Made by a program: the position numbers and the translations under genes. The notes beneath the pieces were generated by a model that made no database searches, was not told where the DNA came from, and saw only the letters and a list, made by a program, of their open reading frames with translations. From NCBI RefSeq assembly GCF_014196305.1, contig NZ_JACIDJ010000003.1, positions 1-64,000 on the forward strand: a DNA stretch of 64,000 nucleotides, read 5' to 3'. Within the stretch, counting starts at the first letter, position 1, and the number at the start of each line of letters is the position of its first letter. The DNA comes from Roseococcus suduntuyensis (GTDB lineage Bacteria > Pseudomonadota > Alphaproteobacteria > Acetobacterales > Acetobacteraceae). Shown one piece after another: positions 44,718 through 60,792 of the stretch.

Positions 44718-44746
44718 CATGGAGACCAGCCCAGGGAGTCTCCATG
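44718..44746 (+). promoter_or_regulatory. Start-codon hairpin of the cyanate-type binding protein
   Basis: CATGGAGAC (44718-44726) pairs perfectly with GTCTCCATG (44738-44746), and the latter contains the ATG start of the binding-protein gene. The likely Shine-Dalgarno AGGGAG (44733-44738) lies almost wholly in the 11-nt loop. Such an arrangement can limit or regulate initiation. Confidence 0.55.
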
Positions 44747-46105
44747 GCCCGCATGTTCCGCCGCGACCCTGTCCTCGATGTCTGCGCCTGCGGGGTGGGC
44801 CACCCGGCCGCCTTCGCCTGCGCCCCGGAGGCCCCGCCCGACGGCACGGGCGAGATGGGCCGTGTCGTCAACGAGGCGGCGCTGCGCGCGGCCTTCCCCA
44901 ATGCGGCAACACGGCGCGGGCTGCTCTCCCTCTTCGGCGCGGGCACGCTGCTGTCGGCGCTGGAGGGCGTGCTGCCGCTGGGGAATGTGCGCGAGGCGCT
45001 GGCCCAGGGCACGCCGGCCGCGGCCCCTGAGAAGCGCGACCTCAAGATCGGCTTCATCCCCATCACCTGCGCGACCCCCATCATCATGGCGGATCCGATG
45101 GGCTTCTATCGCCGCCATGGGCTGAACGTGGAGGTGATCCGCACCGCGGGCTGGGCCGTGATCCGCGACCGCGCCATCGCGCGTGAATATGACGCGGCGC
45201 ATATGCTGGCGCCCATGCCGGTGGCGATGTCGCTGGGGGTGGGCGTGGCCAACCCCATCCCGTTTGCCGTCGCCGCGATCGAGAACATCAATGGCCAGGC
45301 GATCACGCTGGCCAACAAGCACCGCGACAAGCGCAACCCACGCGACTGGCGCGGCTTCCGCTTCGCCGTGCCCTTCGACTTCTCCATCCACAACTACCTG
45401 CTGCGCGCCTATGTGGCGGAGGCGGGGCTCGACCCCGACCGCGACATCCAGATCCGCTCCGTGCCGCCGCCCGAGATGGTGGCCAATCTCCGCGCCGACA
45501 ACATCGACGGCTTCCTGGGGCCGGACCCCTTCAACCAGCGCGCGGTGTTCGACGGGGTGGGCTTCATCCACATCCTGACGCGCGAGCTGTGGGACGGGCA
45601 CCCCTGCTGCGCCTTCGCCGTGCCGCGCAGCATGATCACGGACACGCCCAACACCTATGCGGCCCTTCTGCGCGCCATCGTGGAGGCCACGGCCCATTCG
45701 AACGACCCCGCCAACCGGGTGGCGGTGGCGCAGGCCATCCATGGGCCCAACTACCTCAACCAGCCGCTGACCGTGGTGCAGCAGGTGCTGACCGGCACCT
45801 TCGCCGATGGGCTGGGCGGGGTGCAGCGCGTGCCGCAGCGCATCGGCTTCGACCCCTATCCCTGGCATTCCATGGCCGTCTGGATCCTGACGCAGATGCG
45901 CCGCTGGAACCAGTTGCAGCGCGACGTGGACTGGGCGGCGGTGGCCGAGCAGACCTTCCTGGCCCTCGATGCCGGCCGCGCCATGCGCGACCTGGGCCTG
46001 ACCGTGCCCGAGAGCCCGATGCGCAACGAGACCATCCTCGGCCGCACCTTCGACCCGCGCCAGCCCGAGGCCTATATGGCGAGCTTCGCCATCCGCCGGA
46101 ACTGA
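44744..46105 (+). CDS. NrtA/CmpA-type ABC transporter binding protein
   Basis: 453 aa. It matches the nitrate/bicarbonate/cyanate receptor family: DLKIGFIPITCATPIIMADP, MVANLRADNIDGFLGPDPFNQRA and GHPCCAF blocks. A Tat-type signal (RRGLLSLFGAG, Arg57-Arg58) is internal. It is preceded by an approximately 55-residue extension with Cys14, Cys16, His20 and Cys26 (CACGVGHPAAFAC). Cleavage is likely near ALAQ (about 87). With permease, ATPase and cyanase following, cyanate is the favoured ligand; nitrate cannot be excluded, but no nitrate reductase is here. Confidence 0.88.
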   Translation: MARMFRRDPVLDVCACGVGHPAAFACAPEAPPDGTGEMGRVVNEAALRAAFPNAATRRGLLSLFGAGTLLSALEGVLPLGNVREALAQGTPAAAPEKRDLKIGFIPITCATPIIMADPMGFYRRHGLNVEVIRTAGWAVIRDRAIAREYDAAHMLAPMPVAMSLGVGVANPIPFAVAAIENINGQAITLANKHRDKRNPRDWRGFRFAVPFDFSIHNYLLRAYVAEAGLDPDRDIQIRSVPPPEMVANLRADNIDGFLGPDPFNQRAVFDGVGFIHILTRELWDGHPCCAFAVPRSMITDTPNTYAALLRAIVEATAHSNDPANRVAVAQAIHGPNYLNQPLTVVQQVLTGTFADGLGGVQRVPQRIGFDPYPWHSMAVWILTQMRRWNQLQRDVDWAAVAEQTFLALDAGRAMRDLGLTVPESPMRNETILGRTFDPRQPEAYMASFAIRRN

Positions 46106-46108
46106 GCC

Positions 46109-46960
46109 ATGGCCGCGAAGGGGGAGGCCTGGCGCGCGGCACTGCTGTCCGCGCTGCTGCTGGCCGTGCTGCTGGGCGCCTGGGAATGGGCGGTGAAGGG
46201 CGGCGGTGGGCCGGGTGGCCCGACCGTGGATGCGGAACTGGCGGCACTTCTCAGCCCGGCCGCGGCGGCCGGCGGGCAGACGGCCATGCCCGCGCCGTCG
46301 GACATCGGCGCGCGGCTGGTCGAGTTGCTGCGCGACCCCTTCCACCAGCGCGGCACCAATGACCAGGGCATCGGCATCCAGATCGCGTGGTCGCTCTGGC
46401 GCGTCATGGCGGGCTTCCTGCTGGCGGCGGCCATCGCCATTCCGCTGGGCTTCGTCATCGGCATGTCGCCGCTGCTGAACGCGGCGCTGAACCCCTTCAT
46501 CCAGGTGCTGCGCCCGGTCTCGCCCTTGGCCTGGATGCCGCTCGCCCTCTACACGATCAAGGACAGCAACATCTCGTCCATCTTCGTCATCTTCATCTGC
46601 TCCATCTGGCCCATGCTGCTGAACACGGCCTTCGGCGTGGCCAGCGTGCGGAAGGAATGGCTGAACGTGGCGCGCACGCTGGAGGCCGGGCGCTGGCGCA
46701 CCGCCATGCGCGTGATCCTGCCCGCGGCCGCGCCCACCATCCTGACGGGGATGCGCATTTCCATCGGCATCGCCTGGCTGGTGATCGTGGCGGCGGAGAT
46801 GCTCGTGGGCGGCACGGGCATCGGCTACTGGGTGTGGAACCAGTGGAACAACCTCTCCATCGCCGACATCGTCATCGCCATCCTGATGATCGGGCTGGTG
46901 GGGCTCTTGCTGGACCGGGCGCTCGGCCTCGTGGCGCGCGCGGTGGCGTGGCAGGAATGA
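46109..46960 (+). CDS. NrtB/SsuC-type ABC transporter permease
   Basis: 283 aa. An N-terminal membrane segment is followed by a periplasmic stretch (about 30-80) and a five-helix BPD-transport domain. The EAA loop appears as ARTLEAGRWRTAMRVILPAAAPTI (split here at LPAAAPTI). The start is 3 bp after the binding-protein stop, and the stop overlaps the ATPase start as ATGA. It forms the channel of the cyanate/nitrate-type importer. Confidence 0.92.
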   Translation: MAAKGEAWRAALLSALLLAVLLGAWEWAVKGGGGPGGPTVDAELAALLSPAAAAGGQTAMPAPSDIGARLVELLRDPFHQRGTNDQGIGIQIAWSLWRVMAGFLLAAAIAIPLGFVIGMSPLLNAALNPFIQVLRPVSPLAWMPLALYTIKDSNISSIFVIFICSIWPMLLNTAFGVASVRKEWLNVARTLEAGRWRTAMRVILPAAAPTILTGMRISIGIAWLVIVAAEMLVGGTGIGYWVWNQWNNLSIADIVIAILMIGLVGLLLDRALGLVARAVAWQE

Positions 46961-47817
46961 ACGCCATGCCGGGCATGGGCGGGGCCGCGCGCATCGTCAG
47001 CATCGAGGGGATCGCGCGGCGCTTCCCGGGGCTGACCGTCTTCCAGGACCTCTGGTTCCATGTGGACAGGGGGGAGTTCGTCTGCCTGGTCGGCCATTCG
47101 GGCTGCGGCAAGACGACCATCCTGAACATCCTGGCCGGGCTCGACGTCCCGGATGAGGGCGGCGTGCTGGTGGATGGGCGCGAGATCAGCGGGCCTTCGC
47201 TCGACCGCGCGGTGATCTTCCAGGGCCATGCGCTGATGCCCTGGCTCTCGGCGCTGGAGAACGTGGCCTTCGCCGTCTCCTGCCGCAATCCCGGCTGGGA
47301 CAAGGCACGGGTGCGCGATGCGGCGCGCGCGGCGCTGGCACGCGTGGGGCTGACCCAGGCGGCCGAGCGCAAGCCCGCGCAGCTGTCGGGCGGCATGAAG
47401 CAGCGCGTGGGCATCGCGCGCGCCCTGGCCGTGGAGCCCAAGCTGCTGCTGATGGACGAGCCCTTCAGCGCGCTGGATGCGCTGACGCGCGGCACCCTGC
47501 AGGAGGAGGTGTCGCGCCTGGTGACGGAGGCCGGGCAGACCGCCTTCATGATCACGCATGACGTGGACGAGGCCATCCTGCTGGCCGACCGCATCCTGCT
47601 GATGACCAACGGCCCCGAGGCGCGGGTGGCGGAGGTGGTGCAGAACACGCTGCCGCGCCCGCGGGCGCGCGCCAACCTGCACCACATGCCCGGCTACCAC
47701 CCGCTGCGGGACCACATCATGGACTTCCTGATCACGCGCAGCCGCACACTGGCGGGCAAGCCGCCCGAGGGCTGGGATTCGCGGCGGCCACCGGTGGTGG
47801 TGCCGGCCGAGGCCTGA
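46957..47817 (+). CDS. NrtD/SsuB-type ABC transporter ATP-binding protein
   Basis: 286 aa. Walker A is GHSGCGKTT (about 48-56), the Q-loop is in VIFQGHALMPWL, the signature is LSGGMKQRVGIARAL, Walker B is LLLMDEPFSALDA, and the H-loop is ITHDVDEA. The C-terminal extension after MTNGPEARV is typical of nitrate/taurine-type ATPases. A second, fused NrtC-type ATPase is absent. The cynS gene follows after a repeat-filled 285-bp gap. Confidence 0.94.
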   Translation: MNAMPGMGGAARIVSIEGIARRFPGLTVFQDLWFHVDRGEFVCLVGHSGCGKTTILNILAGLDVPDEGGVLVDGREISGPSLDRAVIFQGHALMPWLSALENVAFAVSCRNPGWDKARVRDAARAALARVGLTQAAERKPAQLSGGMKQRVGIARALAVEPKLLLMDEPFSALDALTRGTLQEEVSRLVTEAGQTAFMITHDVDEAILLADRILLMTNGPEARVAEVVQNTLPRPRARANLHHMPGYHPLRDHIMDFLITRSRTLAGKPPEGWDSRRPPVVVPAEA

Positions 47818-47835
47818 GGGGGCGCCCTTCCTCCG

Positions 47836-47953
47836 CACCCTCCGAGGATCCGGCCGCGACGCGGCCGGCGGCGCCCACGGAGCTTCACAACAGGCGCGAC
47901 CGCCGCGCGCCGCAAGCCAAGCGCGCGCAGCGCGCGCCCGGCGTTTGAGGGCA
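47836..47953 (+). repeat. 118-bp direct repeat, copy 1
   Basis: The segment starts CACCCTCCGAGGATCCGG and ends GCGTTTGAGGGCA. It differs from copy 2 by one base (CGCGACG versus CGCAACG), so 117 of 118 positions agree. Internal palindromes GGCCGC/GCGGCC and CGCGCGCAGCGCGCG can fold. It lies 18 bp after the ATPase stop. I see no coding potential that fits neighbours in either strand. Confidence 0.9.
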
Positions 47954-47979
47954 GAGATCCTCTGTGCACGCCCGGCCAC

Positions 47980-48097
47980 CACCCTCCGAGGATCCGGCCG
48001 CAACGCGGCCGGCGGCGCCCACGGAGCTTCACAACAGGCGCGACCGCCGCGCGCCGCAAGCCAAGCGCGCGCAGCGCGCGCCCGGCGTTTGAGGGCA
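47980..48097 (+). repeat. 118-bp direct repeat, copy 2, carrying the cynS ribosome site
   Basis: Near-identical to copy 1, starting 144 bp later. Its last seven bases, GAGGGCA, place a Shine-Dalgarno (GAGGG) 7 nt before the cynS ATG at 48103. The repeat boundary is thus fused to the gene's translation signal. Together the two copies fill most of the transporter-cyanase gap. Confidence 0.9.
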
Positions 48098-48102
48098 CAA
48101 AC

Positions 48103-48585
48103 ATGACTCGCTCGCAGCTCACGGAGAAAATTCTCGACATCAAGCGGGAGAAGAACTGGACCTGGAAGTATATCTGCGAGGAGATCGGCGGAATGTCGCC
48201 CACCCTCATCGTGGGGGCGCTGCTGGGCCAAATGAAGCTCGTGAAGCCGCTGGCCGCCAAGGCCGCCAAGCTCTTCGGCCTGTCGGAGGTCGAGGAACGC
48301 ATGCTGAACGAAGTGCCTTACCGCGGCACCGCGATGCCCCCCACCGACCCGCTGATCTACCGCTTCTACGAGATGGTGATGGTCAACGGCCCCGCCTGGA
48401 AGGCACTGATCGAGGAGGAGTTCGGGGATGGCATCATGTCCGCCATCGACTTCGACTTCCACTTCGAGCGCATGGCCCATGAGAAGGGCGACCGCGTGAA
48501 GATCGAGATGACCGGCAAGTTCCTGCCCTACAAATACTACGGCAACGAGCAGGGCATCCCGGCCTACGGCTTCAAGGAGGACTGA
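48103..48585 (+). CDS. cynS: Cyanate hydratase (cyanase)
   Basis: 160 aa, full length. It converts cyanate plus bicarbonate to ammonia and CO2. All three catalytic residues are in place: Arg87 and Glu90 in PLIYRFYEM, and Ser113 in DGIMSAIDF, equal to E. coli Arg96, Glu99 and Ser122. The N-terminal helical domain (1 to about 75) and C-terminal dimer domain ending YYGNEQGIPAYGF are standard. Its position behind an NrtABD-type importer supports cyanate uptake and detoxification or use as nitrogen. Confidence 0.98.
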   Translation: MTRSQLTEKILDIKREKNWTWKYICEEIGGMSPTLIVGALLGQMKLVKPLAAKAAKLFGLSEVEERMLNEVPYRGTAMPPTDPLIYRFYEMVMVNGPAWKALIEEEFGDGIMSAIDFDFHFERMAHEKGDRVKIEMTGKFLPYKYYGNEQGIPAYGFKED

Positions 48586-53299: not shown

Positions 53300-53456
53300 G
53301 ACCGATTCACGGCTCCGGCAGCGCCGGAGCCGATCGGGCGGGCTTTGCCACGCGACCGATTCACGGCCCCGGCTGCGCCGGAGCCGATCGGGCGGGCATT
53401 GCCACGCGACCGATTCACGGCCCCGGCTGCGCCGGAGCCGATCGGGCGCTATTGCC
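53300..53456 (+). repeat. Three 54-bp hairpin repeats after the IlvD-type gene
   Basis: Units begin at 53300, 53354 and 53408 with GACCGATTCACGGC and are 54 bp apart. Each folds: CCGAT pairs with ATCGG outside, CCGGC with GCCGG inside (GGCTCCGGCAGCGCCGGAGCC in unit 1). A degraded partial unit precedes them near 53274. The third unit runs into the last codons of the dehydratase gene, whose stop is at 53449-53451. The same unit in reverse orientation forms the array at 60635. This array fills most of the 325-bp gap after the gene. Confidence 0.88.
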
Positions 53457-60634: not shown

Positions 60635-60792
60635 CGCGTCCGATCGTCCCGGCGCAGCCGGGGCGTGAATCGGCCGCGCGAAGATTCCACCGCGTCCGAT
60701 CGTCCCGGTGCAGCCGGGACGTGAATCGGCCGCGCAAAGGTTCCACCGCGTCCGATCGTCCCGGCGCAGCCGGGGCGTGAATCGGCCGCGCA
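60635..60792 (+). repeat. Three 56-bp hairpin repeats between lipoprotein B and phaC
   Basis: Units start at 60635, 60691 and 60747 with CGCGTCCGATCGTCCCGG and are 56 bp apart. Each has CCGAT/ATCGG outside and CCGGC(GCA)GCCGG inside. The unit is the reverse complement, with small changes, of the 53300 array unit. It fills the whole convergent gap (60635-60798) and starts directly after the lipoprotein stop. Confidence 0.9.

Follow-up and report, generated by a model that had tools for sequence, protein, structure and literature searches.

Three groups of described repeats lie closest to the element considered here. The CcrM/CerM-associated intergenic repeats (CIR) of Caulobacter, Brucella and other Alphaproteobacteria (Chen & Shapiro 2003, reviewed in PMC2229807) are multi-copy extragenic units of ∼110 bp, built from inverted-repeat arms and a linker, with a mechanism of mobility that has not been established. 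The REP/BIME/REPIN sequences associated with RAYT (TnpA-REP) are dispersed GC-rich palindromes lying outside genes and near to them; according to PMC3733652, the ends of GTAG-type REP give stop codons to flanking ORFs, which sets a precedent for repeat ends that touch coding signals, and the CGTC repeats of Alphaproteobacteria are missing in Acetobacteraceae. The MITE-type elements, including ERIC, RUP and Correia, are short, non-autonomous-looking, structured and mostly intergenic, and ERIC is reported to alter the stability of neighbouring transcripts (PMC2229807, PMC10969869).

The repeat under study, a 118-nt unit present in two copies ahead of the cyanase gene cynS in a 64,000-nt stretch of Roseococcus suduntuyensis DNA (the window), resembles each group in the build and placement just described, and it fails the defining features of REP/RAYT, CIR and MITE families that were tested. 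It is set apart from CIR by the lack of a conserved GANTC at the hairpin loop: among 126 near-full copies of the family, GANTC occurs in 31, always at position 11 before helix 1 (with one further site at position 46), and in neither window copy. Unlike REP, a palindrome of 20–40 bp, the element comprises several hairpins within 118 nt, and the window copies have no GTAG or CGTC tag near their ends on either strand; CGTC appears on the − strand of copy 1 inside the helix 1 loop, and across the 126 copies the four spellings of GTAG/CGTC turn up 10 times at no more than 10 nt from an end. Mobilisation by a RAYT was rejected on finding no Y1 transposase (PF01797) in the window's own genome or in 20 of 21 genomes of the genus (completeness is ≥90% for 13 of these 21; the control was positive in 5 of 14). 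The Y1 matches of the one other genome, G016, are located at C14:41498-41860, C19:18455-18754 and C10:31877-32146. In contrast to MITEs, no target-site duplication was found at 94 solo copies, the best k-mer common to both flanks being 4.45 against 4.44 expected from shuffled pairing. The CCCTC and GAGGG ends, to be compared with the terminal inverted repeats of MITEs, are paired in 69% of cells and never show a two-sided change, which leaves a closing helix CCCTC/GAGGG unsupported. Among the open-licence papers brought up by full-text searches, none has a title or abstract on this repeat, or on repeats supplying a Shine-Dalgarno (SD) sequence in this group of bacteria.

The cyanase locus and its repeat family

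All features of the locus lie on the + strand. Genes for an ABC transporter substrate-binding protein (NMT1_2; 44744-46105, Pfam/NCBIfam profile match), a permease (46109-46960, score above the ntrB cut-off) and an ATPase (46957-47817, profile match and gene calling, with a profile score of 289.3 just below the ntrCD cut-off of 291.8) are followed codirectionally by the repeats and then by cynS (48103-48585), which encodes a cyanase of 160 aa recognized above cut-off by Pfam Cyanate_lyase/CYNS_N and NCBIfam cynS. Self-comparison and the family model place copy 1, a full-length family member, at 47836-47953 and copy 2, docked against cynS, at 47980-48097. The two are identical at 117 of 118 positions, just as the first-pass annotation had described them, with a single G/A mismatch at unit position 23 and a start-to-start distance of 144 nt. 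Its description of the copies as filling the gap between ATPase and cynS holds for 236 of the 285 nt from the ATPase stop (47817) to the cynS ATG (48103), the remainder being non-repeat stretches of 18 nt before copy 1, 26 nt between the copies and 5 nt after copy 2; the end it had assigned to the repeat, 48110, falls 8 nt inside cynS. The 26-nt spacer (47954-47979) is not repeated, so that the copies stand in tandem without being back to back; compared by eye, it is unlike either outer flank. Copy 2 terminates in TTTGAGGGCA, and the GAGGG of this 3′ end (48091-48095) sets GAGG (48091-48094) 8 nt before the ATG across an A-rich spacer (48098-48102) like that at other start-docked copies. No second SD-like motif was found in the 20 nt upstream of the ATG, the SD scoring applied to the cynS sites selects this motif as well, and the earlier claim that GAGGG is the only Shine-Dalgarno sequence of cynS is thus borne out by position. 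Judged from that placement, the supply of a putative SD to cynS by the repeat is well supported.

The 118-bp unit is a member of a dispersed extragenic palindromic family of the Roseococcus/Rubritepida group of the Acetobacteraceae. A covariance model trained on 31 copies gave 50 matches at E ≤ 1 in the window's genome (G000), 43 of them at E ≤ 1e-5, so that a search for further copies in that genome finds the repeat dispersed. Among the best 150 candidates per genome, matches at E ≤ 0.01 numbered at least 40 in G004, a near twin of G000, at least 102 in G015, at least 30 in G012 and at least 6 in G006; the window copies themselves have at least two matches in each of 19 genomes of the same genus. 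Judging from identical cynS gaps, Rubritepida flocculans and Roseococcus sp. SDR belong to the group carrying the element. With a copy from another family (G029) as the query and the best three candidates scored per genome, the 3′ core of the element was detected in 18 of 289 genomes across the class, distributed over 13 family codes including its own. At three loci of G029 (L046, L319, L337) the core is found in a composite form, between long palindromes on both sides and in near-identical copies. The plasmids and phages searched gave no match, on which ground carriage by either was rejected, and Rfam gave none above gathering score at the window repeat and only a tRNA above it on 20 loci with class-level relatives. 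One such relative (L343:1467-1553), beside a convergent tRNA gene, has a sub-threshold match to the twister-sister ribozyme (29.4 bits, gathering score 34). This was kept as a lead only and twister-sister identity was rejected, since the remaining 19 class-level loci lack a match of this kind and none above cut-off came from a search of 20 genomes, where the L343 copy itself was unlisted; the matches listed for G000 and G268 included none, by eye, on a known element copy.

The strong palindromes ascribed to the repeat at first pass are recovered by comparison between copies, not by folding one copy alone, whose predicted fold is no more stable than when its GC-rich letters are shuffled (z = −0.89). 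The comparison reveals a structure supported by compensatory change. In an alignment unfitted to any structure, two-sided changes occur in 6 of the 21 predicted pairs. In 92 model-aligned copies, an alignment that leans towards the model, the covariation score is 0.209 (shuffled, 0.057; slid, ≤0.025), and 98.7% of 1905 cells are paired. The covarying stems are helices 1–3; in copy 1, the hairpin of helix 1 (CCGGCCGC..GCGGCCGG) extends over 47850-47868 and that of helix 3, the family's strongest covarying stem, over 47921-47935, with equivalents in copy 2 at 47994-48012 and 48065-48079. Helix 4, in which GCCC would pair with a GGGC overlapping the SD and through which GAGG could thus be engaged by the upstream GCCC, is nearly invariant, shows no two-sided change and is unproven. 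In the stems of helices 1–3, 147 cells have changed on two sides and 10 on one, mostly by G-C/C-G swaps with few G-U pairs, a hint that the changes resemble DNA-level palindrome correction more than ordinary RNA drift, and may reflect a constraint on the DNA or correction through template switching.

One-ended docking at gene edges

The surroundings of copies were analysed in four genomes, covering almost every copy listed for G000 and G004 and a part, mostly best-scoring, of those of G015 and G012. From 137 profile matches, 126 near-full copies were kept (G000, 40; G004, 33; G015, 35; G012, 18), none of which lies mainly inside a called gene. Genes were called by a self-trained home-made model that ignores SD sequences, and all starts and stops are those of the caller, not of an annotation. 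Subtraction of 19 copies with another copy directly after them gives 107 array-terminal copies, not all of which represent independent events because orthologous copies are common to sister species (84–99% identical in 10 pairs). The GAGGGC (3′) end lies no more than 10 nt from a called gene in 67 of the 107, the 5′ end in 14. When G004 is left out, 50 of 79 copies dock within 12 nt. Crowding was considered as the source of this pattern: the median free intergenic space around copies is 62 nt, and gaps so short could bring any repeat near genes, with a GAGG end that sometimes resembles an SD, just as some SD-like 4-mer precedes 195 of 482 control ATG genes. Chance of this kind is, however, disfavoured already by the controls, and we regard it as highly improbable. 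Docking is one-ended, and 20000 random placements within these gaps gave a mean of 26 docked copies and at most 41, and random flips of orientation a mean of 40.5 and at most 57, both short of the 67 observed. As a measure of replication-strand bias, the GC skew of the analysed loci is confounded with gene strand.

Docking involves starts as well as stops. A same-strand gene lies downstream of 29 copies, 21 of which end within 12 nt of its start, and for 19 of these 21 the distance is 5–9 nt. GAGG is present in 20 of the 21 start-docked copies, and a later AGGA, GGAG or GAGG in none. The genes concerned, as named from their own sequences, include what we take to be nrdR, accC, acpS, mtnA and an Xre-like regulator. 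Start-docked copies (21 of 107) thus precede unrelated genes of no consistent class, and the gene specificity of a cis-regulatory leader was not found. Conservation of GAGG is similar in start-docked (20/21), stop-docked (45/47) and distant copies (38/39), with 13 of 19 among array-internal copies; being equally conserved where use as an SD is impossible, the motif appears to be kept mainly as a property of the element, not through SD use.

The remaining 78 of the 107 copies face a convergent gene, 47 of them docking at ≤12 nt from its stop. Together with the GC-rich hairpins and the codirectional upstream gene found at 21 of 21 start-docked copies, this could suggest an element of mRNA 3′ ends, either a terminator or a REP-like 3′-end protector, whose start-docked copies really belong to the gene upstream. 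We consider such a role quite improbable, seeing that the docked end at starts adjoins the downstream gene and not the upstream one, and that no T-run follows the stems in the + strand of the consensus. In some of 26 stop-to-element gaps (L178, L222 and L238 among them), moreover, a predicted hairpin with a T-run stands ahead of the element, which there follows a terminator-like signal; the predicted hairpins of L178 and L222 are themselves pieces of an element end.

The host sequence beside the docked end is A-rich in every docking class. At positions −8 to −3, the A fraction is 0.60 in 19 start-docked genes and 0.19 in 426 controls. In the final six coding positions, the T fraction is 0.50 in 24 genes abutted at ≤2 nt and 0.12 in 548 controls; for neither fraction did any of 5000 resamples reach the observed value. 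The T enrichment is weaker, 0.21, in 21 genes abutted at 3–8 nt. Because these six positions are part of the coding sequence, their A/T richness is that of the host site, and a target preference is favoured.

Our preferred reading, to which we give a probability of roughly two in three, is that a mobile palindromic repeat prefers A/T tracts and has, in its GAGG end, a ready-made ribosome site, and that the cynS gap was filled by it repeatedly and then doubly in the window. Copies would settle with the GAGGGC end beside a tract rich in A (in T on the opposite strand), moved presumably by an enzyme. In a genome of 70% GC, tracts of this kind are probably commonest at gene edges, that is, in SD-to-ATG spacers, at stop codons and in terminator T-tracts, and it would be insertion preference, rather than selection, that makes the docking pattern. 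An insertion that separates a Shine-Dalgarno sequence from its start codon would, as a rule, be expected to reduce or abolish expression of the gene. Placed before an ATG, however, the element would bring its terminal GAGG to working SD distance in replacement of the native SD, ribosomes would use that GAGG, and the downstream gene would therefore stay translatable. If the docked end is indeed a ribosome site, this would explain how palindromic repeats can spread inside the operons of compact genomes. In a more far-reaching version, the repeat would belong to a class-wide family of structured mobile elements, so far undescribed, that dock one end at gene edges and bring a Shine-Dalgarno of their own. 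Insertion between native ribosome site and start codon would then do no harm while rewiring translation, and the native SD of cynS would have been replaced several times in different lineages; we advance this version tentatively and consider it rather more doubtful than likely.

Filled, empty and reversed sites at cynS, nrdR and acpS

The element precedes cynS in 7 of the 96 loci searched with copies (L050-L145), representing five distinct sites: the window, G004, L059 (same as L085), L056 (same as L076) and L100. The gaps were read by eye, with 10 loci lacking a located cynS start and 16 others lacking the ATPase left out. Across relatives, most readable gaps are without the repeat and short, and they have an ordinary AGGAG-type SD of their own; the 12 empty sites scored show AGGAG (9), GGAG (2) or AGGA (1) at 6–8 nt from the ATG. 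In the window, G004 and L100, cynS has the element's GAGG as its sole SD-like motif. Upstream of the element, L100 has an AGGGGAG-type SD and is the only site with a clear native SD left there. In L059 and L056 the element ends in GAGGAG and GAGGAA, respectively, instead of GAGGGC. Long gaps among the empty sites are those of L057/L078, with a 334-nt palindromic stretch, of L099, with a 363-nt stretch containing a helix-turn-helix-like ORF (named by eye), and of L123; the gap between ATPase and cynS seems to be insertion-prone. On a tree of 44 loci from ATPase and cynS, the filled state requires 4 changes, at least 3 of them on well-supported branches, and as few are needed in 85 of 500 label shuffles; the pattern may mix gains with losses. 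Several gains are preferred because L100 differs in its flanks, and cynS was probably filled several times in different lineages.

The first-pass annotation had suggested that a mobile-looking repeat captured, or was selected for, control of cyanase translation. Of this, dispersal of the repeat is supported, and so is the standing of its GAGG as the sole SD-like motif of the gene. Control of cyanase, and selection for it, find no support in view of the GAGG conservation in non-SD copies and of a predicted SD accessibility that is the same in filled (0.32–0.58) and empty (0.03–0.60) cynS sites. The latter comparison also led us to reject sequestration of the SD by folding as a switch. SD placement is characteristic of the family as a whole, with nothing in it particular to cyanate.

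Two further genes provide histories of the same kind. Between glyA and nrdR, the element was found by eye in 12 of 12 genomes that have the genes as direct neighbours, 144–162 nt apart. It is forward in seven (GAGGGC before the nrdR start) and reversed in five (GAGGGC at the glyA stop), the copy in G001 being degenerate, and forward also on short contigs of G032 and G013. In six genomes without an element seen at nrdR, glyA is not adjacent, and the contig of G031 starts too late. At acpS, where the upstream gene was taken for relA, 20 genomes comprise 8 with a forward copy, 2 with the end hairpin only, 3 with a reversed copy and 7 without, among which G006 has a possible remnant and G032 another neighbour gene. 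On a tree of four genes, orientation has changed at least three times at each of nrdR and acpS, and presence at acpS at least five times. Sister species differ, G010 from G018 at nrdR, and G009 from G015 and G000 from G004 at acpS. The reversed acpS copy of G000 and the forward one of G004 are 70% identical, like copies from different loci (mean 72%); an in-place inversion was thus rejected, and the alignment indicates that the copy was probably replaced, not flipped.

A selected regulatory or boundary element, retained between particular genes for a structure that controls their translation, transcription or mRNA stability and whose control is strengthened by doubling at cynS, has its best argument for function in the steady presence at glyA-nrdR, which exceeds what random insertion should give and favours some function there. 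Consistent with such a role are also the covarying helices, the same place and orientation of the element at five distinct cynS sites, and the decayed copies, diverged or nearly deleted, at nrdR in G018 and at acpS in G007 and G001, where GAGGGC before the ATG is kept and the remainder has degenerated, suggesting retention of the SD once installed. We nevertheless regard it as unlikely. The changes of orientation at nrdR and acpS mean that no fixed leader is kept, 86 of the 107 array-terminal copies are not start-docked, and empty cynS gaps are common; the uniform GAGG conservation and the indifferent SD accessibility, both noted above, speak against it as well. On the preferred reading of insertion at A/T tracts, cynS, nrdR and acpS offer natural sites without the element, with one or two copies, or with a reversed one, in which SD replacement could be measured directly.

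Two copies at cynS are found in the window only, the four other distinct sites having one each; the earlier suggestion that copy number tunes read-through from the transporter genes is left without support. Since solo elements are found elsewhere too, the condition that the first-pass annotation had named as its refutation, an identical pair of copies in every relative and none standing alone, does not hold. The window copies are 99% alike, each being ∼92% identical to the single cynS copy of G004, and the doubling is therefore recent, the inserted copy presumably having then doubled. It appears to follow a habit of the family, since same-strand neighbouring copies occur at three other places in the window's genome and arrays of four head-to-tail copies in G015. 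These arrays (C1:4883251-4883726 and 4708051-4708525) have a 119-bp period with two equal-scoring copies, as expected of tandem amplification. The window has two other tandem palindromic arrays, at 53300-53448 and 60635-60792, with 2.8 copies each of 54- and 56-bp units that by eye look related and opposite in orientation, and that constitute a second repeat family in the window.
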